From the IMG/VR virus record IMGVR_UViG_3300007234_000093, positions 1 through 24,994 of that record: a DNA stretch of 24,994 nt. One strand, given 5' to 3'. Shown in pieces: positions 3,528 to 20,365 of this stretch (position 1 is its first letter; every line of letters starts with the position of its first letter). The position numbers were made by a program, and so were the translations under genes. The DNA is from a virus. The notes beneath the pieces were generated by a model, which was given only the letters and a program-made list of their open reading frames with translations, searched no databases and was not told the origin of the DNA.

Positions 3528-3687
3528 TTTTAATATATTTCTTTACTATATATACAGTATCGTGATTTCCATGCCATTCAAGAGTGTCGCCTTCCTCCCA
3601 ACCTAATTGATCTAAAAGATCTTCAGGAAGTTCTACGTAAAGATCTTCAGAATCTTCATACTGTTTGACCGTTGATGTCCAATTCAC
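3508..3687 (-). CDS. AbrB/MazE-like small protein with GTG start
   Basis: 59 aa in a different frame between heme oxygenase and the bilin reductase, overlapping both (32 nt and 20 nt). The core YVELPEDLLDQLGWEEGD followed by TLEW matches the swapped-hairpin AbrB/MazE DNA-binding fold, and similar single-domain proteins occur in marine T4-like phages. The GTG at 3687 is supported by GGAGGA about 9 nt upstream; a reading from an ATG is not available in this frame before the domain. Such proteins usually bind DNA as dimers or act as antitoxins. No toxin partner is visible. Control of the bilin operon is possible but inferred only from position. Confidence 0.8.
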   Translation of the reverse strand: MNWTSTVKQYEDSEDLYVELPEDLLDQLGWEEGDTLEWHGNHDTVYIVKKYIKNDTPME

Positions 3688-4234
3688 TGAAATAATCCTC
3701 CAATTCTTCTAAGAATTTTTGTACCATACTAAAGCATACTTTTGCTTCTTCTGCCAAGTTATTATGTAATTTTGATCGAATGATATCTTTAAGAACAACA
3801 GGATCACCATCAAATTCATATAAAGCAGTTGGGCCTGGAACAAGTTTTTTAATTATTTGGCCTCCTGATAAATCACCCATATGACGCACATACACGTGAG
3901 CAAGCAATTTATCTTTATCATCTTTTATTTGTCGAATATAATTTACATAATGATGTGATGCCGAAAAGATAGGAGCATCAGAAAACTTTTGTTCTGTTTC
4001 CATTGTAATTACATCATTAAATAATGCAGCACCCCTTAATATAGGTTCCATGTCTTTTGTAATAGCACCAGCTTCAGTTGCATAATATTCAAGATTTGTG
4101 TATGAAAATAATTGATTTTTAAGATATACGTAATACTCGTAAGGACTAATTTTTTTCTTTATCATTCTACTCATAAAAGCAGTACGTTCTGCTCTACGGT
4201 GTTCTTGTTTTGTGATTTCTCTCAAACTATCCAT
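3656..4234 (-). CDS. ho1: heme oxygenase
   Basis: Cleaves heme to biliverdin, iron and CO with ferredoxin as reductant in phage and plant-type systems. 192 aa. The proximal His is His12 in ITKQEHRRAERTAFM; the distal helix is YVRHMGDLSGGQIIKK, with the flexible glycines over the heme. I choose the ATG at 4234 because AGGA stands about 8 nt upstream; the in-frame ATG at 4264 has no ribosome site and adds ten residues not typical of the family. It leads an operon with the AbrB-like gene and the bilin reductase, and lies behind a sigma70-like promoter that coincides with a late box. Confidence 0.95.
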   Translation of the reverse strand: MDSLREITKQEHRRAERTAFMSRMIKKKISPYEYYVYLKNQLFSYTNLEYYATEAGAITKDMEPILRGAALFNDVITMETEQKFSDAPIFSASHHYVNYIRQIKDDKDKLLAHVYVRHMGDLSGGQIIKKLVPGPTALYEFDGDPVVLKDIIRSKLHNNLAEEAKVCFSMVQKFLEELEDYFSELDINGQTV

Positions 4235-4289
4235 TCGTGGATTCCTAAATAATCCCACGAACATAATCGTAAGATGTTTATCAATAATT

Positions 4290-4297
4290 TATTTATA
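4290..4297 (-). promoter_or_regulatory. T4-type late promoter box for heme oxygenase
   Basis: Exact TATAAATA on the minus strand, 56 nt upstream of the heme oxygenase ATG. T4-like late promoters consist of this single element read by gp55 with gp33 and the sliding clamp. It overlaps the -10 of the sigma70-like promoter described next. Confidence 0.6.
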
Positions 4298-4320
4298 ACA
4301 CAGATAAATGTAGATGTCAA
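4292..4320 (-). promoter_or_regulatory. sigma70-like promoter for the bilin operon
   Basis: TTGACA at 4320-4315, 17-nt spacer, TATAAA at 4297-4292. It begins 3 nt after the stop codon of the Fe-S carrier gene. Because its -10 is also the first six bases of the late box, the heme oxygenase operon could be expressed both early and late. Confidence 0.7.
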
Positions 4321-4323
4321 CTA

Positions 4324-4608
4324 TTAGATTGCAAAACTTTCACCGCAACCACAAGAAGCGGTTGCGTTAGGATTTATTACTTTTAAATAAGCCCCTCCAA
4401 GTTCTTCTATATAATCAATAGTACATCCAAATACAAACATTTCAGCCATAGGATCTAACCACAAGTTTTCAATGGTAGGTTCTTTATCCGTAGTTCCCCA
4501 TTCGTATTGAAAACCTGAGCACCCTCCACCTTTTACTGTCAAAGATATGTTTGGCTTTCCAACTTTTTGAAGATACTCTTTAGCTTTATCTGTAATATTT
4601 AAAATCAT
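4324..4608 (-). CDS. A-type iron-sulfur carrier (IscA/ErpA/HesB family)
   Basis: Carries Fe-S clusters to apoproteins. 94 aa, slightly shorter than the bacterial norm. The three conserved cysteines are present: Cys30 in KGGGCSGFQYEW and Cys86/Cys88 in the C-terminal SCGCGESF. The N-terminus begins with LNITDKAKEYLQK, the usual first helix. It overlaps the upstream small membrane protein by 4 nt (ATGA) and ends just before the bilin operon promoter. Heme oxygenase and bilin reductase both need ferredoxin, so cluster supply is a plausible role; phage redox enzymes outside the window are the alternative client. Confidence 0.92.
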   Translation of the reverse strand: MILNITDKAKEYLQKVGKPNISLTVKGGGCSGFQYEWGTTDKEPTIENLWLDPMAEMFVFGCTIDYIEELGGAYLKVINPNATASCGCGESFAI

Positions 4609-5031: not shown

Positions 5032-5252
5032 TACATTACTCCGTATGTACTCATAATGGCAGGTCCAAACAAACTCATTACCCACATAAGTACCGCAATA
5101 CTAAATATGCCAATTAGTAACCATTTCATTTTAAAGTCATCTACTTTCATTTGTAAGCCAAGGACTTCATTTCCTAAAATTCTAATTGCAAGCTCAAACT
5201 TACCTTCTGGATGGTCTATCATTTCAATTGCTTTTTGTTTTTCTTCAGACAT
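5031..5252 (-). CDS. small single-pass membrane protein
   Basis: 73 aa with a soluble N-terminal helix (ELAIRILGNEVLGLQMKVDDF) and a C-terminal membrane segment (WLLIGIFSIAVLMWVMSLF, about residues 44-62). The ATG has GGAG about 10 nt upstream and overlaps the lipase gene by 8 nt. It lies between the lipase and another membrane-anchored protein. Not recognised. Confidence 0.75.
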   Translation of the reverse strand: MSEEKQKAIEMIDHPEGKFELAIRILGNEVLGLQMKVDDFKMKWLLIGIFSIAVLMWVMSLFGPAIMSTYGVM

Positions 5253-5994
5253 TTATATTCTCCTTTGTATACTTGCAATAATGAACCATACTATGGTCAT
5301 ACGCGCCATCAAATGGCATTCTCTTTTTTAACGCTGCCCAACGACCGCGCCATTTATCTTTAGTACGCTGCCACTTGCTCATTTTTCGTATTTTTCCATA
5401 GAAGTTGATGTAGCGCGGCGGACAGTGGTGTCTATATCCCATGAAAGCAAAAGGAACAGAAGTGACCATGTCATTATTGTTAACGTGGCGGAAATGAGGT
5501 ATGTGAGCAAATGATTTAACAAATTTTTTATTCCCTACTCGTGGCGAGCCGTAAGTAAATAGGCAATCCGGTTCGCGCTCGCCGTTAATTAAACGGCTAG
5601 TTGCAATTGTAGCCATTGCACCACCAAGTGAATGACCACATATGAAAAAATCTTTTTCTGGTAATTTATTAATACCACCTAAAGCCATCATTATTTTATC
5701 CCATAGTTTATTCACTTCCTCTTGGAAACCATTATGTACCATTCCGTGACCATTAAATGCTTTATCAGGCCAGGCATTTAAATCAGCTTTAATATCTGAA
5801 AATTCTCCAGGCTCGGTTCCTCTAAACGCCAAAACAACTTCCGTTTTGTTTGAAGCTAAGTGACATTGAGCGCCATCTGCTTCCATAAATTTGTGTTGAG
5901 TATAACCTAATCTTTTAAATTCTTTTTTAGCTTCGGGCCCATCCATATAAGCAATCTGGGCGCACTCTGCCATTTTTGCACAATGCTCGATCAT
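5245..5994 (-). CDS. class 3 lipase (alpha/beta hydrolase)
   Basis: 249 aa, Lipase_3 family, hydrolysing acyl esters. The nucleophile elbow is GHSLGG with Ser122; the strand and oxyanion region before it is VVLAFRGTE (residues 53-61). The acid is probably Asp175 in NNNDMVTSVP and the histidine His234 in YDHSMVHY, the expected order for the triad. No signal peptide is visible, so it acts in the cytoplasm or reaches the membrane through partners. It forms an ATGA overlap with the upstream coiled-coil gene and sits in a run of small membrane proteins, which suggests a part in membrane lipid breakdown or lysis; phage lipid remodelling is the alternative. Confidence 0.92.
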   Translation of the reverse strand: MIEHCAKMAECAQIAYMDGPEAKKEFKRLGYTQHKFMEADGAQCHLASNKTEVVLAFRGTEPGEFSDIKADLNAWPDKAFNGHGMVHNGFQEEVNKLWDKIMMALGGINKLPEKDFFICGHSLGGAMATIATSRLINGEREPDCLFTYGSPRVGNKKFVKSFAHIPHFRHVNNNDMVTSVPFAFMGYRHHCPPRYINFYGKIRKMSKWQRTKDKWRGRWAALKKRMPFDGAYDHSMVHYCKYTKENINV

Positions 5995-10748: not shown

Positions 10749-11546
10749 TTAGAACGAGAAGCTAAGACCAAGTGTTGGAGTGAACTCTTCGTTATCAAGA
10801 TTGTATGCGGCTCCAGCAGTAACATCAGCACCACCTAAACTAATAGTGTATTCGCCACCAATATTTTGTAACATTTCATCTTGATCACCGTTTAAATACG
10901 TAGTAATGCCCATTGCATTAGCTACCACTTCGAAACCAATATCTTCGGCGTCCATGTCGTATGTCAACGCACCGCCTAATGAAGCAATACCAACATCAAG
11001 ACCGCTTGCACCTACTCCTAAAACAAAATTTTCTGAGTCCATGTTATAATCACCGCCTGCGGTAACATTTAATGTGTCACCAAGGCTAAGTGTATATGCA
11101 CCTTGAATGTTACTAATGTCTGTGACATCGGCTGCCATATCAGTAAAACCAACGGCAACAGCAGCATCACCTACATTAACTTTAACAGCCGTACCCATTG
11201 CTGGGGCTGCGAGTGTTTGTTCACCTTCAGCGCCTGGCATAACACCTTGGTCTGTACCAAGAGAAACACCAATTGATCCACCTATTAACGTTCCAACTGT
11301 CCAATCATTAAGTTCAATTGAATCATTACTATTTAAACCAAAGTCTAAATCTACTGATGCTAAACCAGCCGCATCAATACCAAGATCTAAACCTGTTGTG
11401 GCGCCGTAATCACCTGCTGCAGTTTCTGCAATATCAATAGAAAATTCTCCAGAAAGTGTTGGCCCTGCAGTGGCCGTTGTGTCTTCGGCAAATGCAGCAC
11501 CGGCAAAGATTGCTACAATTCCTGTCGTGATGAGTAGATTACGCAT
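10749..11546 (-). CDS. outer membrane beta-barrel protein, porin-like
   Basis: 265 aa. Signal peptide MRNLLITTGIVAIFAGAAFA; the rest is Gly/Ala/Asp-rich with repeated amphipathic strands (VTAGGDYNMDSENFVLGVG, VTAGAAYNLDNEEFTPTLG) and ends in GLSFSF, the C-terminal aromatic needed for barrel assembly. The repeated D/N-turns mark periplasmic or surface loops. Codon choice is more G+C-rich than its neighbours, suggesting acquisition from a bacterium. AAGGA precedes the ATG. A phage-encoded barrel could change host permeability or mask receptors; which of these cannot be told. Confidence 0.8.
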   Translation of the reverse strand: MRNLLITTGIVAIFAGAAFAEDTTATAGPTLSGEFSIDIAETAAGDYGATTGLDLGIDAAGLASVDLDFGLNSNDSIELNDWTVGTLIGGSIGVSLGTDQGVMPGAEGEQTLAAPAMGTAVKVNVGDAAVAVGFTDMAADVTDISNIQGAYTLSLGDTLNVTAGGDYNMDSENFVLGVGASGLDVGIASLGGALTYDMDAEDIGFEVVANAMGITTYLNGDQDEMLQNIGGEYTISLGGADVTAGAAYNLDNEEFTPTLGLSFSF

Positions 11547-11803: not shown

Positions 11804-11830
11804 TTAGTTTATCCTTTTTTTTATTTTAGC

Positions 11831-12209
11831 GCCACTTTTCTGTTGCTAGGTAAGTGACCAACCCCCTTAATTATGCTGCTAGAGCAAAACCAGAAGGTGC
11901 AAAATTATCATTTGCATTTGTAGTTTTTGGCTGAATAACGTAGGCCAACACGGTGAACTCCACTCAACTATTCCGTCCGTCGATCCTAATTCGCCCCCAT
12001 CATAAACACACGAATAAGTAATGGTCCAAATCTATAACTTTTATATGGATTGCCACTATTAAATCTAAATTCACCCCATTGAAAAGGTGTTCCTTTAAAC
12101 CAACTTATCCAGTGCCAATCCCAATTCATATTTGATCCATGTGTTTATGGTGGAGGCGTCGGGAATCGCACCCGAGTCCGATCCGTCTTTATTTTGTTTC
12201 AACGTCCAC
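11831..12209 (-). ncRNA. ssrA: circularly permuted two-piece tmRNA (ssrA)
   Basis: tmRNA rescues stalled ribosomes and tags the nascent peptide for proteolysis. Here the halves are in permuted order. The acceptor piece comes first, ending at 12148 in a T-arm (TCGGG, loop TGCGATT, CCCGA), CGCCTCC, A and encoded CCA. About 150 nt later the coding piece starts at 11998 with GGGGGCG, then AATTAGGATCGACGG. GGGGGCG pairs with CGCCTCC over 7 bp, with G3-U70, the alanine identity pair. The tag frame (11915-11871) encodes ANDNFAPSGFALAA and a stop; tmRNA tags of this ANDN...ALAA type are alphaproteobacterial, not the ANxIVxFSRQxAPVAA type of marine cyanobacteria. A 7-bp stem (about 11857-11831) may mark the 3' end. 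Piece ends are approximate. Confidence 0.93.
11986..12129 (-). CDS. Trp-rich 47-aa ORF inside the permuted tmRNA spacer
   Basis: 47 codons lying between the CCA end of the acceptor piece (12148) and the 5' end of the coding piece (11998), and running 13 nt into the mature coding piece, where GGGGGCGAATTAG supplies its last codons (MGAN then TAG is partly this sequence). The protein starts MNWDWHWISWFKGTPFQWG and includes YRFGPLLIRVF, with five Trp and several Phe, which is not what random A+T-rich DNA gives. A weak GGAT lies about 6 nt upstream. If translated, the message is the tmRNA precursor itself. Function unknown. Confidence 0.6.
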   Translation of the reverse strand: MNWDWHWISWFKGTPFQWGEFRFNSGNPYKSYRFGPLLIRVFMMGAN

Positions 12210-12215
12210 TTTTTA

Positions 12216-12244
12216 TATATAATACATATTAATAAAAATGGCAA
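12216..12244 (-). promoter_or_regulatory. sigma70-like promoter for tmRNA
   Basis: TTGCCA at 12244-12239, a 17-nt spacer and TATATA at 12221-12216. Predicted start near 12209, about 60 nt upstream of the acceptor-piece CCA. It occupies the gap after the kdsB stop (12263). Confidence 0.6.
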
Positions 12245-12262
12245 TACAAAATAAAATATAGT

Positions 12263-12970
12263 TTACAGTGTTGCATTTTTGTATCTATTAAGATTCCACG
12301 CAATTGCATCTTCTGGAGAGTTAATTTCTAATCCATTAAAATTTACTTTTAAGCATCCAACGTCCCAACCAGCTTTTAACCAACGTAACTGCTCTAACTT
12401 TTCAACTTGTTCTTCTATTTCAATTTTATATGTTGGATAACAATGTAATGCATTACGACGATATCCGTAAATTCCTAAATGCCAATCACCATACCCTGTC
12501 ATTCCGCGACCAAACCAAAGTGCCTTATCACCGCTTCTTACCATTTTTACAGAGTTTTGATCTTCTTGCATTTCTTTAGGCATATCAGTAAACAAAGTTA
12601 CTACATTATAATTTTTAAGATGCCATTCAACTTTTTCTATCATTTCAACAGTTACGTCTGGCATATCGCCTTGAACATTTATAAATTTATCATAAGACTT
12701 AAATAAACTACATAAATTATCGTTAATAGCACCAGCGCATCTTTCGGTTCCATTCTCATAAGGAACACTTTGGTCAATCCAACAAGTCTCCCAAGTGAAT
12801 AACCTAGCGACTCGCATATCGTCTGTAAGTACGTAGGTGTCAAGTCCTGATTTTTTACATCTTTCATAGACTCTCTCAATCATAGTTTTACCGCCTAAAT
12901 CACAAAGAGGCTTGCCAGGAAATCTTGTTGATTTATATCGTGCTGGTATAAGGATTGCAGTATTAGACAT
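12263..12970 (-). CDS. kdsB: CMP-KDO synthetase (3-deoxy-manno-octulosonate cytidylyltransferase)
   Basis: Activates KDO with CTP for lipopolysaccharide inner-core synthesis. 235 aa from the ATG at 12970 (an upstream TTG at 12979 is possible but unnecessary). Nucleotide-binding motif IPARYKSTRFPGKPL (residues 8-22), metal site VQGDMPDV with Asp102, LGIYGYRR and the C-terminal NSPEDA all fit KdsB, whose usual length is about 245-250. No convincing Shine-Dalgarno site precedes the ATG; a short ORF overlapping the start by 8 nt could couple its translation to kdsA. Confidence 0.93.
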   Translation of the reverse strand: MSNTAILIPARYKSTRFPGKPLCDLGGKTMIERVYERCKKSGLDTYVLTDDMRVARLFTWETCWIDQSVPYENGTERCAGAINDNLCSLFKSYDKFINVQGDMPDVTVEMIEKVEWHLKNYNVVTLFTDMPKEMQEDQNSVKMVRSGDKALWFGRGMTGYGDWHLGIYGYRRNALHCYPTYKIEIEEQVEKLEQLRWLKAGWDVGCLKVNFNGLEINSPEDAIAWNLNRYKNATL

Positions 12971-13067
12971 AATTATCAATATAGTGTTGCATTAGTTTAT
13001 AAGGAAAAGTGCATATGTATATGTATATAGACCAAAATATTATATTATATACTATAATTTCTATCAT
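12963..13067 (-). CDS. possible 34-aa coupling peptide between kdsA and kdsB
   Basis: 34 codons starting with a TAATG overlap on the kdsA stop and ending inside the kdsB start (ATGTCTAA, 8-nt overlap). The product is hydrophobic at the front (IIVYNIIFWSIYIYI) and ends LMQHYIDNYV. It bridges the whole gap between two enzymes of one pathway, and kdsB has no ribosome site of its own. It may be a leader-type coupling ORF or chance; no homologue is recognised. Confidence 0.4.
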   Translation of the reverse strand: MIEIIVYNIIFWSIYIYICTFPYKLMQHYIDNYV

Positions 13068-13888
13068 TATGAAAAACCTTTGAAATTTCTATCTATAGGC
13101 GTTGTTTCTTTTTCGGCGTATCTATAATCAACAATATCACGCACGACATTTTTAAAATCTTTGAGATATAACATATTAGGACCGTCGCTTGGAGCACTGT
13201 CTGGATTTGGATGTACTTCTAAGAAAAAGCTAGAAATCCCGAGAGCAGAGCCAGCACGAGCAAGATGAGGCACATACTCACGATTTCCACCAGACGAGGT
13301 TCCTTTAGCTCCTGGTAATTGCGCTGAGTGCGTAACATCATAAACAAATCTTCCACCAAGATTAGAAACGAGATCCCACATGCCAGTGAAATCATTAATA
13401 AGACGTCCGTACCCAAAACTTGTTCCTCTTTCTGTAATCCAAACTTCTACTGCACCTTTTGTTTTTGATAGTATACCAGTTACATCCCAAGGAGATAAGA
13501 ACTGACCTTTTTTTATATTTACAATTTTGTTTGTTTGGCACGCAGCTTTAATTAAATCGGTTTGTCTACAAAGAAAAGCTGGTATTTGTATTACATCTAC
13601 GGCATCATTATATAAATTTGAAATTGATTTTACTTGCATAACATCATGCACATCAGTGAGTGTTTTGATATTATATTGTCCCTTTAAAGCTCGGAAATCT
13701 TGCAGTGTTGCATCCATACCTACACCGCGTTCTCCATTTATATTTGTACGATTTGCTTTATCATAACTTGCTTTAAATATATATTCTATTCCGTATTGTT
13801 CGCATATATTTTTGCATTCTTTAGCAATTTCAGCACTTTGTCCTAAACTTTCATGCTGACAAGGACCAGCAATAATTCTTAGTTTCAT
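13067..13888 (-). CDS. kdsA: KDO-8-phosphate synthase
   Basis: Condenses phosphoenolpyruvate with arabinose-5-phosphate. 273 aa, standard length. Motifs in order: IIAGPCQHES, FKASYDKANRT, IQIPAFLCRQTDL, NIKKGQFLSP, TERGTSFGYG, YDVTHS, FLEVHPNPD and APSDGP. Cys10, His187, Glu224 and Asp235 match the four metal ligands of the metal-dependent KdsA class (Cys11, His185, Glu222, Asp233 in the Aquifex enzyme), unlike the E. coli metal-free class. The start overlaps the cupin gene stop (TAATG). With kdsB it gives two steps of KDO activation; the phosphatase and isomerase are not in the window. Confidence 0.95.
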   Translation of the reverse strand: MKLRIIAGPCQHESLGQSAEIAKECKNICEQYGIEYIFKASYDKANRTNINGERGVGMDATLQDFRALKGQYNIKTLTDVHDVMQVKSISNLYNDAVDVIQIPAFLCRQTDLIKAACQTNKIVNIKKGQFLSPWDVTGILSKTKGAVEVWITERGTSFGYGRLINDFTGMWDLVSNLGGRFVYDVTHSAQLPGAKGTSSGGNREYVPHLARAGSALGISSFFLEVHPNPDSAPSDGPNMLYLKDFKNVVRDIVDYRYAEKETTPIDRNFKGFS

Positions 13889-14244
13889 TATATTTGTGTA
13901 CCTATTGTTCTACGTATAATATCATCGTGATTAAATTCTGCCCAATATAATTCAAACGCTACGCCGTCTTCAAGACCTTCAAATTGATGAATTTTGCCAG
14001 GTTTAACTTGTGTGAAATCACCTGCAGTTAAAATAGTTTCGTCTACTAAACCTTCTTGGTCTTCATCTTGCCAAACTCTTACTAGCATGGTACCGCTTTC
14101 CACATAAAACCCGTTCCATTTGAAACGATGCTCATGCTCGCTACATTTAAATCCTTTATGAAATTCAATACGATGAAATTCTAAAACGCCGTTTGCATGA
14201 ATTAATTCTGTATTTCCCCAGATTTTGCCTGCCTTTATACCCAT
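13888..14244 (-). CDS. cupin-domain protein
   Basis: 118 aa, single cupin. First motif SEHEHRFKWNGFYVESGTMLVRV holds the metal His residues (two His and a later Glu), second motif PGKIHQFEGL holds the third His. Related small cupins act as sugar isomerases, epimerases or sensors. It is translationally coupled to kdsA, so a role with KDO or another surface sugar is likely; an arabinose-5-phosphate-related function would be attractive but nothing in the sequence proves it. Confidence 0.85.
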   Translation of the reverse strand: MGIKAGKIWGNTELIHANGVLEFHRIEFHKGFKCSEHEHRFKWNGFYVESGTMLVRVWQDEDQEGLVDETILTAGDFTQVKPGKIHQFEGLEDGVAFELYWAEFNHDDIIRRTIGTQI

Positions 14245-14856: not shown

Positions 14857-14885
14857 ATTATAATAGGATCTGGCCCGAATGTCAA
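14857..14885 (-). promoter_or_regulatory. perfect-consensus sigma70 promoter
   Basis: TTGACA at 14885-14880, 17-nt spacer, TATAAT at 14862-14857: full consensus at optimal spacing. The TGA stop of the sulfotransferase gene (14884-14882) lies inside the -35. The Shine-Dalgarno site and ATG (14830) follow about 20 nt after the expected start. Confidence 0.85.
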
Positions 14886-15520
14886 CAAAAATATTTTCCC
14901 CAAACTTCATAATCTTCTTTATACATTTCTTTTATCATTTTCAATTCCTTTTTCTTATTTTCAAAAACAGGTTTTTCTTGAGTCTTACGAACGGTTGCTT
15001 TTCTTATTGCAAGCGGAATATCAGAGCGCCTGCTTACTTTTGATATAATTGGAAGTAATATATCGTCTATATTATTTGAATTAATCACTTTTGTGTATAT
15101 ACTTGGATTGGATCCTATTTGACTGCATTGTGTATCTGTATGAATTTTAATATTTTCATCTTCTCTTGCATAGTCAATATTGTAAATAAATTTGGAGAAG
15201 GTGTCTAGTGTATCTCTTAAATCACCGTTATTTCTAAATTGAACTCTGTCTTTGTATGCACTAAACAATCTATCTACAGGATCTCTTACAATTGCAATTC
15301 TTATAGGATATTGTTTTAATATATTTTCTGTAAGATCTTCTACATTATATTCTTTCCACAAACCTTCTTCTAAAAGGTTTTTTCTTGCCGAGCGTTTATT
15401 AAATTTTCCTATATATGGATAACCTAAATACTGTATTATTGTTGTTGAACCGCATTTAAGACTTGGCGCAACCATAATTTTACTATTACTTGTATATGTA
15501 ACGCATTGTATATTATTCAT
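14882..15520 (-). CDS. sulfotransferase-family protein
   Basis: Transfers sulfate from PAPS, here probably to a carbohydrate. 212 aa from the ATG at 15520 (ATGA overlap with the upstream stop; a GTG at 15526 is the alternative). The 5'-phosphosulfate loop is PSLKCGSTTIIQYL (residues 19-32) and the 3'-phosphate site is IRIAIVRDPVDRLFSAYKDR (73-92), in the right order and spacing for Sulfotransfer_2-like enzymes. No signal peptide or membrane anchor, so it would act in the cytoplasm. Being next to KDO genes, it may modify a surface glycan. Confidence 0.85.
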   Translation of the reverse strand: MNNIQCVTYTSNSKIMVAPSLKCGSTTIIQYLGYPYIGKFNKRSARKNLLEEGLWKEYNVEDLTENILKQYPIRIAIVRDPVDRLFSAYKDRVQFRNNGDLRDTLDTFSKFIYNIDYAREDENIKIHTDTQCSQIGSNPSIYTKVINSNNIDDILLPIISKVSRRSDIPLAIRKATVRKTQEKPVFENKKKELKMIKEMYKEDYEVWGKYFC

Positions 15521-15750
15521 TTCCACGATCTTTCAACGTAATAAGCACCTTCAGGCTTTTTCATCGCTGCCATTAATTCAAAATACATGTGCGAGCTCAT
15601 CACTATAAGATCGTGCACTTGTTGTTTTTCATTCCATTGACGAATATATACTTCGGAGTCATCTATAAAAACTTGAATATCTTCATAACGACCTTCGTCG
15701 TCAAGAATTGTAGTAACAGTTTCGTCCCAATCAAATTCATTAGTGAACAT
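15517..15750 (-). CDS. conserved small phage protein
   Basis: 77 aa, starting MFTNEFDWDETVTTILDD, then VYIRQWNEKQQVHDLIVMS and ending with PEGAYYVERSW. This family is common in T4-like cyanophages and has no known role. It overlaps the upstream gene by 11 nt and the sulfotransferase by 4 nt. Acidic, soluble, no special motifs. Confidence 0.8.
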   Translation of the reverse strand: MFTNEFDWDETVTTILDDEGRYEDIQVFIDDSEVYIRQWNEKQQVHDLIVMSSHMYFELMAAMKKPEGAYYVERSWK

Positions 15751-16018: not shown

Positions 16019-16459
16019 TTATTCAGTATGAGATGTAATCTGCCATTGCATTTTCTCATGAAAATCAATACGATCTTCAAGAAAACTTGCAACTCCAATT
16101 TGATTTAATTCATCAGCCATACGATGTGCTTCTCTTAATTCAGTAAGAAATCTATCATTATCTTGTCCTAGGCGCACGAACATAAAGTTTGAACTTGGAA
16201 TAGAAAGCTCGTCTGAAATAACAGTCATTTCAGAAAATCTTTTTAAAGATCCTGGTGCAAATGCGTTAAGGGCACGAATATGTTCTGCATAATCATCGAT
16301 AGACTCAAATACACTTTCATAAAATTCAGAAAAGAAATCGTGATATTGTTTAAAGTTTGGGCCGGTTACGTTCCAATGATAATTATGAGATTTTAAATAT
16401 AAAGAAAAAGCGGAAGAAAGTATAACTTTCATTTTTTCTATTAAAATTTCGTTTTCCAT
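16019..16459 (-). CDS. Dps-family ferritin-like protein
   Basis: Dps dodecamers oxidise and store iron and protect DNA. 146 aa, within family range. The core YHWNVTGPNFKQYHDFFSEF and DDYAEHIRALN gives His28, His40, Asp55 and Glu59 at the spacing of the inter-subunit ferroxidase ligands of E. coli Dps (His51, His63, Asp78, Glu82); the residue matching Asp67 is Ser44. There is no Lys-rich DNA-binding tail. It is behind an exact late box with a clear AGGAG. With heme oxygenase, which frees iron, it suggests iron handling during late infection. Confidence 0.9.
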   Translation of the reverse strand: MENEILIEKMKVILSSAFSLYLKSHNYHWNVTGPNFKQYHDFFSEFYESVFESIDDYAEHIRALNAFAPGSLKRFSEMTVISDELSIPSSNFMFVRLGQDNDRFLTELREAHRMADELNQIGVASFLEDRIDFHEKMQWQITSHTE

Positions 16460-19660: not shown

Positions 19661-20365
19661 TTACCATTCTCCAGTCCAATGTGACATATTAAATTCTTTA
19701 TATAGATCTTTTTTCATTTTTTCATGTCCTTCACTAATTCCATTCTGATATAATATTGTATCATAAGGAGGATCTTCACGATATGTAACTAAAAATGGAT
19801 TTTCTTTAACAATTTTACGAAAGCTATTAAAAAACTCAATACCAGGGTTTGTATCTGCTTGTTCACCAAAGATTGATTTAGAAACGGCATGCATATATGT
19901 TTGTGGACCTAAGTAATAAACGTGGCGATAACCTTGTTTTCTTCTCCAAAGATTTAAACCTATTGCATCACTAAAAGTAGTATTGTTTGGAACGCTTAGC
20001 ATGAAGTCTTGAGAAAAATCTGAGTCTTTATAAGTTGGTAGAACCCAACGTGTATCTTTTTCGATAATTGACGAAAGAGGTGTATTACAAAGACGATCTA
20101 CATCAACATACAAACCACCTTCGATATATATTTTTAATAATCTCCAAATATCGGATTTTGCAACAATATGATCATCCTTAACAAGATCATAATCTAATCC
20201 TAATTTTTCTTTAAGATATTGTTCTATATCATAATCATCATAAACTCGAACTTCCCAATCTGGATTTAGTTCAATTATTTTTTTAAGTCCGTTTTGAATA
20301 AGAATAGAATTACTATTAAGTATATCTTTAGTAGACCAAGTCGTATGAACGATCTTTGGTATCAT
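19661..20365 (-). CDS. DXD glycosyltransferase (GT32-like, Gly_transf_sug)
   Basis: 234 aa. It opens MIPKIVHTTWSTKD, the usual IPKIIHQ-like first strand, and has the conserved block AKSDIWRLLKIYIEGGLYVD ending in the metal-binding DVD (residues 88-90). This is the capsule/OCH1-type sugar transferase family; the substrate cannot be told. GGAG is 10 nt before the ATG. It may add sugars to host or phage surface glycans or to DNA, although DNA glucosyltransferases of T4 belong to other families. Confidence 0.9.
   Translation of the reverse strand: MIPKIVHTTWSTKDILNSNSILIQNGLKKIIELNPDWEVRVYDDYDIEQYLKEKLGLDYDLVKDDHIVAKSDIWRLLKIYIEGGLYVDVDRLCNTPLSSIIEKDTRWVLPTYKDSDFSQDFMLSVPNNTTFSDAIGLNLWRRKQGYRHVYYLGPQTYMHAVSKSIFGEQADTNPGIEFFNSFRKIVKENPFLVTYREDPPYDTILYQNGISEGHEKMKKDLYKEFNMSHWTGEW

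Follow-up and report, generated by a model that had tools for sequence, protein, structure and literature searches.

A phage-borne permuted two-piece tmRNA gene whose intervening segment probably serves as an exchangeable slot for small-protein genes

The window, that is, the whole stretch of DNA analysed, is a virus record of 24,994 bases that encodes a T4-like DNA topoisomerase II, and the tmRNA gene described here is therefore phage-borne. ARAGORN and Rfam placed this gene at 12209-11828 on the minus strand as a permuted two-piece tmRNA, with the acceptor piece upstream of the coding piece. The full model was matched both for RF04321 tmRNA_permuted (121.9 bits, E 1.1e-23; cut-off 47 bits) and for RF01849 alpha_tmRNA (108.2 bits, E 5.4e-29; cut-off 50 bits), the latter being a covariance-model search that a preliminary description of this DNA had called for. 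The locus comprises the following features.

12216..12244, minus strand: weak promoter-like site, TTGCCA-17-TATATA, read beside the TTGACA/TATA sites of relatives
12148..12209, minus strand: acceptor piece (T arm, 3' acceptor strand, encoded CCA), from RF04321, RF01849 and ARAGORN
11999..12147, minus strand: intervening segment of 149 nt between the two pieces, the putative cargo slot; ORF-bearing slots are found elsewhere
12135..12149, minus strand: 5' strand of a helix continuing the acceptor stem; pairs with 12001-12015 and covaries across families
12136..12138, minus strand: GGA, a possible weak ribosome-binding site, where relatives have GAGG
11986..12129, minus strand: nested ORF of 47 codons plus TAG, family F3 (42 viral loci; pN/pS 0.08-0.13), overlapping the coding piece by 13 nt
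12001..12015, minus strand: 3' strand of the helix continuing the acceptor stem, from covariation; also codes for the nested ORF
11828..11998, minus strand: coding piece (5' acceptor strand, mRNA-like part), from RF01849; 3' end approximate
11871..11915, minus strand: tag reading frame ANDNFAPSGFALAA plus UAA, from ARAGORN and the Rfam alignment

Elsewhere in the window, the 265-aa product of a gene at 10749-11546 (minus strand) carries a signal peptide, has LSFSF at its C terminus and looks like an outer-membrane porin; it has no match in Pfam or PHROGs. The genes at 12263-14244 (minus strand) encode a cytidylyltransferase (KdsB-like), a DAHP/KDO-8-P synthase-like protein and a cupin, possibly a KDO sugar pathway in the phage. 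Pfam matches to heme oxygenase, Fe-S biosynthesis protein, class 3 lipase, sulfotransferase, ferritin-like protein and glycosyltransferase were obtained for genes at 3656-4608, 5245-5994, 14882-15526, 16019-16459 and 19661-20365 (all minus strand).

The CCA at 12150-12148 and the GGGGGCG from 11998 read exactly as in the preliminary description, and the 7-bp acceptor stem with G3-U70 that it reported is present as GGGGGCG/CGCCUCC. The tag frame plus stop, likewise noted there, was recovered by ARAGORN as ANDNFAPSGFALAA followed by UAA and recurs in the Rfam alignment; the tag ends in a hydrophobic degradation signal. The proposal of a phage-borne permuted two-piece tmRNA of the alphaproteobacterial type is thus upheld by the two Rfam models, by ARAGORN and by covariation of the acceptor stem, which among loci carrying F3 also occurs as GGGGGUG/CACCUCC, GGGGUCG/CGACUCC and GGGGCUG/CAGCUCC. 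Over four stem sequences the stem is fully paired (7/7) in 34 of the 35 F3-carrying loci and 6/7 in the remaining one, and 13 of the 14 F3 carriers compared have tags that start with ANDN and end with AA. By all sequence signs the tmRNA remains functional in F3 carriers, and the window tmRNA is a new example of an already known kind of RNA. The distance between the pieces, given earlier as about 150 nt, was measured as 149 nt, but the gap, previously taken as empty, contains a protein gene, the 47-codon ORF.

The nested ORF runs from ATG (12129) to TAG (11986), with its stop inside the tmRNA body, and reads MNWDWHWISWFKGTPFQWGEFRFNSGNPYKSYRFGPLLIRVFMMGAN. Its length is by itself mildly improbable (49 of 2000 dinucleotide shuffles were as good, p ~0.025), no match was found in Pfam or PHROGs, and AlphaFold, run on this ORF alone, gave no informative model (pLDDT 64). 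Scanning viral contigs gave 42 loci coding for the F3 protein; in most of them it occupies this same position between the pieces of a permuted tmRNA, and the borders (CCATAAACACATGAGGATATA-ATG ... GTGTTTATGAT-GGGGGCG) hardly vary. Among 19 distinct DNA versions pN/pS was 0.13, with 21 of the 32 variable sites at the third codon position; without the border codons it was 0.08, and none of 100 column shuffles was equally low. As read from these substitution patterns, the F3 segment encodes a protein of 42-47 aa under purifying selection. A four-base Shine-Dalgarno sequence (GAGG) precedes the gene in 12 of 13 strict F3 carriers; the window copy has GGA only.

At least 279 distinct viral permuted tmRNAs were retained after filtering from pattern scans of metagenomic contigs; these loci were picked by segment length, and the counts hold among the matches listed and are not population frequencies. 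Among these matches, an ORF of at least 25 aa was present in 144 of the 209 segments of 100-199 nt and in none of the 69 segments of 20-59 nt, while 65 of the 209 longer segments had no recognised ORF. The slot ORFs form 33 clusters, 14 of them multi-member, and mostly encode proteins of ~26-60 aa. F1, with the sequence MKNPLVREVSKWMFKAYIVWSICADITLLAGIIYLVFF, was found in 292 viral stretches and lies directly before the coding piece in 78 of the 80 copies fetched, the other two being cut by the contig end. Values of pN/pS were 0.24 for F1, 0.20 for F4, 0.12 for F6, 0.28 for F7, 0.26 for F9 and 0.34 for F12, and for F1, F3, F4, F6, F9 and F12 none of 100 column shuffles gave a value equally low. 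One multi-member cluster, F11, did not pass as coding (pN/pS 1.2) and was rejected and left out. A four-base Shine-Dalgarno sequence was present in about half of the members of multi-member families (63 of 126). F12 matches Pfam DUF6356 above the cut-off; neither the window ORF nor any other slot family gave a Pfam or PHROGs match to a homing endonuclease, and tblastn searches of cultured phages with individual slot proteins returned no useful match. The slot adds about a dozen unrelated phage micro-protein families and many singletons.

Several carriers have further peculiarities (L numbers denote loci). In L006, L029 and L110, which carry F12, an in-frame ATG starts at the A of the tmRNA's CCA. 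L650 and L703 have two ORFs per segment, the first ending like F6 (..YEDLCM, ..YDDLCM) and followed by F1. The start of F1 is overlapped out of frame, in L014, L657 and further F1 carriers, by a short upstream frame (..MIGDSDEEP..) whose ribosome-binding site, AAAGGAG, is strong. By eye, F1, F8, F9 and F10 resemble membrane peptides.

For comparison with bacteria, a covariance search of Alphaproteobacteria gave a match in 224 of 240 genomes, and the alphaproteobacterial tmRNA spans among the matches listed were mostly 185-260 nt, with three of about 150 exceeding 300 nt. Five intervening segments taken from among the longest (89-232 nt) held no ORF of this kind, their longest frame being one of 20 aa (L739); this control, limited to five segments, is compatible with nested genes in bacteria. 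A pattern scan of genome contigs for the same control yielded nearly all its matches by chance.

A two-piece tmRNA in a phage is by itself not new, as Methylophilales phage Melnitz has a permuted two-piece tmRNA and 53 two-piece forms were suggested among 133 unique phage tmRNA structures (PMC9004378). Both from marine phages, the Melnitz and window tmRNAs share piece order, acceptor stem, T arm, tag frame and encoded CCA; the window segment is 149 nt long and protein-coding, whereas the Melnitz paper (PMC9004378) and record annotate no protein there. At that place the record (MZ577097.1, 45984-46436; L639:1442-1894) has nothing but the tmRNA annotated, and inside this tmRNA gene lies an unannotated nested frame (MFKWLSKTRLVVITRDYFRERNRKADAKIPKYLSG...; MFKWLSKTRLVVITRDYF...) that resembles F6 (MRQWLLNLKFVVITKDYFAERQRKADAKIPKYLSG...), by reading of its slot only. 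The 2025 tmRNA database holds 97,179 sequences, 79 of them from phages, and its paper reports one tRNA gene and one repeat in intervening sequences and, in the passages covered, mentions no protein gene there (PMC11915505). The same paper describes group I intron tmRNA genes with a homing endonuclease, which share with the window a protein gene in a part missing from the mature RNA; the window slot, in contrast, has no intron or homing endonuclease and belongs to slots with small proteins of many unrelated families. It also gives a tRNA-Ala gene in the intervening sequence of one permuted tmRNA, and thus a gene nested in the same segment, but that case is an RNA gene in a single sequence, while here exchangeable protein genes occur in many phages (PMC11915505). 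No description of a protein gene in the intervening sequence of a permuted tmRNA was found in the open-access literature searched, relative to which a permuted tmRNA with an exchangeable protein gene nested in it is a new form.

Among F3 carriers, the ORF DNA is 90-100% identical compared with mostly 55-80% for the coding pieces, and for most of the flanking DNA similarity does not rise above the aligner background. Conversely, 138 pairs of coding pieces that are at least 85% identical hold different slot contents. L100 and L361 have the same tmRNA (99-100%) and near flanks 89-93% alike, with the F3 gene in L100 and a 29-nt hairpin in L361; L406 and L417 are 97-100% alike in both near flanks, yet carry different nested genes. 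Such near-identical tmRNAs with different genes, or with an empty 29-nt slot, indicate that slot contents are exchanged between phage tmRNAs, and viral slots at large hold either many unrelated small genes or a short hairpin only. F3 also exists outside tmRNA, at gene junctions. This occurrence, the high identity of F3 DNA across diverged tmRNAs and the empty slot of the otherwise like tmRNA in L361 would also fit selfish micro-genes to which the tmRNA offers a safe harbour, with no benefit to tmRNA or phage. We regard this as rather unlikely: no mobility protein is encoded, flanking homology is enough to account for the exchange, and purifying selection on many unrelated proteins suggests a function for the phage.

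Individual loci add to this picture of the family. L142 has two F3 copies outside tmRNA, on either side of thyX (L142:3187-3336 and L142:4001-4147), which overlap stop and start codons of adjacent genes. Bearing on a possible transposon or insertion element, direct repeats were seen by eye beside F3 copies in L142 and L151, with ends that vary between sites, and there is no transposase within the F3 cassette. In L152:1110-2138 an acceptor piece and nested gene without coding piece are followed about 600 bases on by a complete tmRNA, apparently a partial duplication. L124 combines the window's coding piece with the acceptor piece of L155-like tmRNAs (L155-L160), with one acceptor mismatch, and is either a recombinant or an assembly chimera.

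The ends of the slot pair with each other and extend the acceptor stem past the CCA. Over 87 distinct border pairs 96% of the core pairs form; swapping the partners lowers this to 73% and sliding them to 51-58%, and all pair types are used; short segments have the same border helix in a less strict form. In the window the whole slot folds as one long hairpin (z -4.9 against shuffles), and the nested gene passes through the 3' strand of the border helix. Since this helix continues the acceptor stem, a gene in its loop would leave the tRNA-like fold reachable. In F3, F4, F9 and F10 the stop lies inside the tmRNA (+13); F1, F5 and F8 end a single base ahead of the cleavage site, and F2, F6 and F7 stop further upstream. 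With a stop 13 nt inside the mature coding piece, as in the first four families, a cut at the mature 5' end would leave a message without stop; RNase P might thus remove the nested stop, ribosomes would stall, and tmRNA from the same transcript would tag the small protein for destruction, so that the tmRNA level would control its amount. Such self-tagging is possible for F3 but not general, given the stop positions of the other six families, and these positions are accounted for by the border sequence alone, being set where the frame crosses the conserved border. As an explanation of the locus we find it improbable.

Two further readings have very little left in their favour. An ordinary phage permuted tmRNA with a chance open frame in its gap would suit the modest length statistic of the window ORF (p ~0.025, 49 of 2000 shuffles) and the failure of cluster F11, but pN/pS is low in six families, where 0 of 100 shuffles equal it, one and the same protein recurs in unrelated tmRNAs as well as outside tmRNA, and short segments have no ORF, all of which makes it extremely improbable; selection and distribution rule it out. 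Equally remote is conservation of the segment as a structured, non-coding RNA processing element. In its favour are the strong covariation of the helix made by the slot ends and a fold of the window segment that is better than in shuffled sequence (z -4.9). However, the helix is limited to the borders, the inner changes fall mainly at third codon positions (21 of 32 in F3) and column shuffling removes the pattern, so that the codon-position pattern rules out purely non-coding conservation.

We therefore consider it very probable that the locus is a phage-borne permuted two-piece tmRNA gene whose intervening segment doubles as an exchangeable cargo slot for small proteins, co-transcribed with the tmRNA. 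The own promoter proposed in the preliminary description is plausible, and TTGACA/TATA boxes occupy the corresponding position in relatives, but the window copy (TTGCCA-17-TATATA, 12244-12216) is weak and was not among the sites listed by a stricter promoter scan. A TTGACA/TATA-like site lies at most 120 nt upstream of 183 of 289 viral permuted tmRNAs, compared with 6 in mononucleotide-shuffled sequence, and the T4-type late promoter motif TATAAATA is no more frequent in the window than by chance. A single promoter would give a single precursor, from which ribosomes would translate the nested gene. RNase P would cut before GGGGGCG and 3' trimming would expose the CCA, releasing the two tmRNA pieces and destroying the message, and translation and tmRNA maturation would compete. 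Because ribosomes would traverse the helix's 3' strand and, in F3, also the acceptor stem, reading of the gene and maturation of the tmRNA would be mutually exclusive. The spread of slot contents may be explained by the conserved tmRNA flanks, which can act as homology arms for phage recombination. We liken the slot to tpr of the E. coli tyrT operon, presumably a small protein coded in spacer RNA that is destroyed by tRNA processing. Spacer genes of tRNA operons such as tpr lie between or after whole tRNAs, whereas the slot gene separates the halves of a single RNA and may extend into a mature piece.

Tentatively, phage permuted tmRNA genes in general might be small-protein expression slots, in which one transcript is both message and precursor, the helix makes translation and RNase P cleavage exclusive, and self-tagging occurs where the stop lies inside the tmRNA. 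As a cargo slot, the intervening segment gains a use, with phages carrying and swapping small protein genes that annotation has missed. It becomes testable whether permuting a gene provides additional coding capacity and whether a stable RNA's maturation can be coupled to translation of an internal message, for which Melnitz, a cultured phage, offers an immediate test system.
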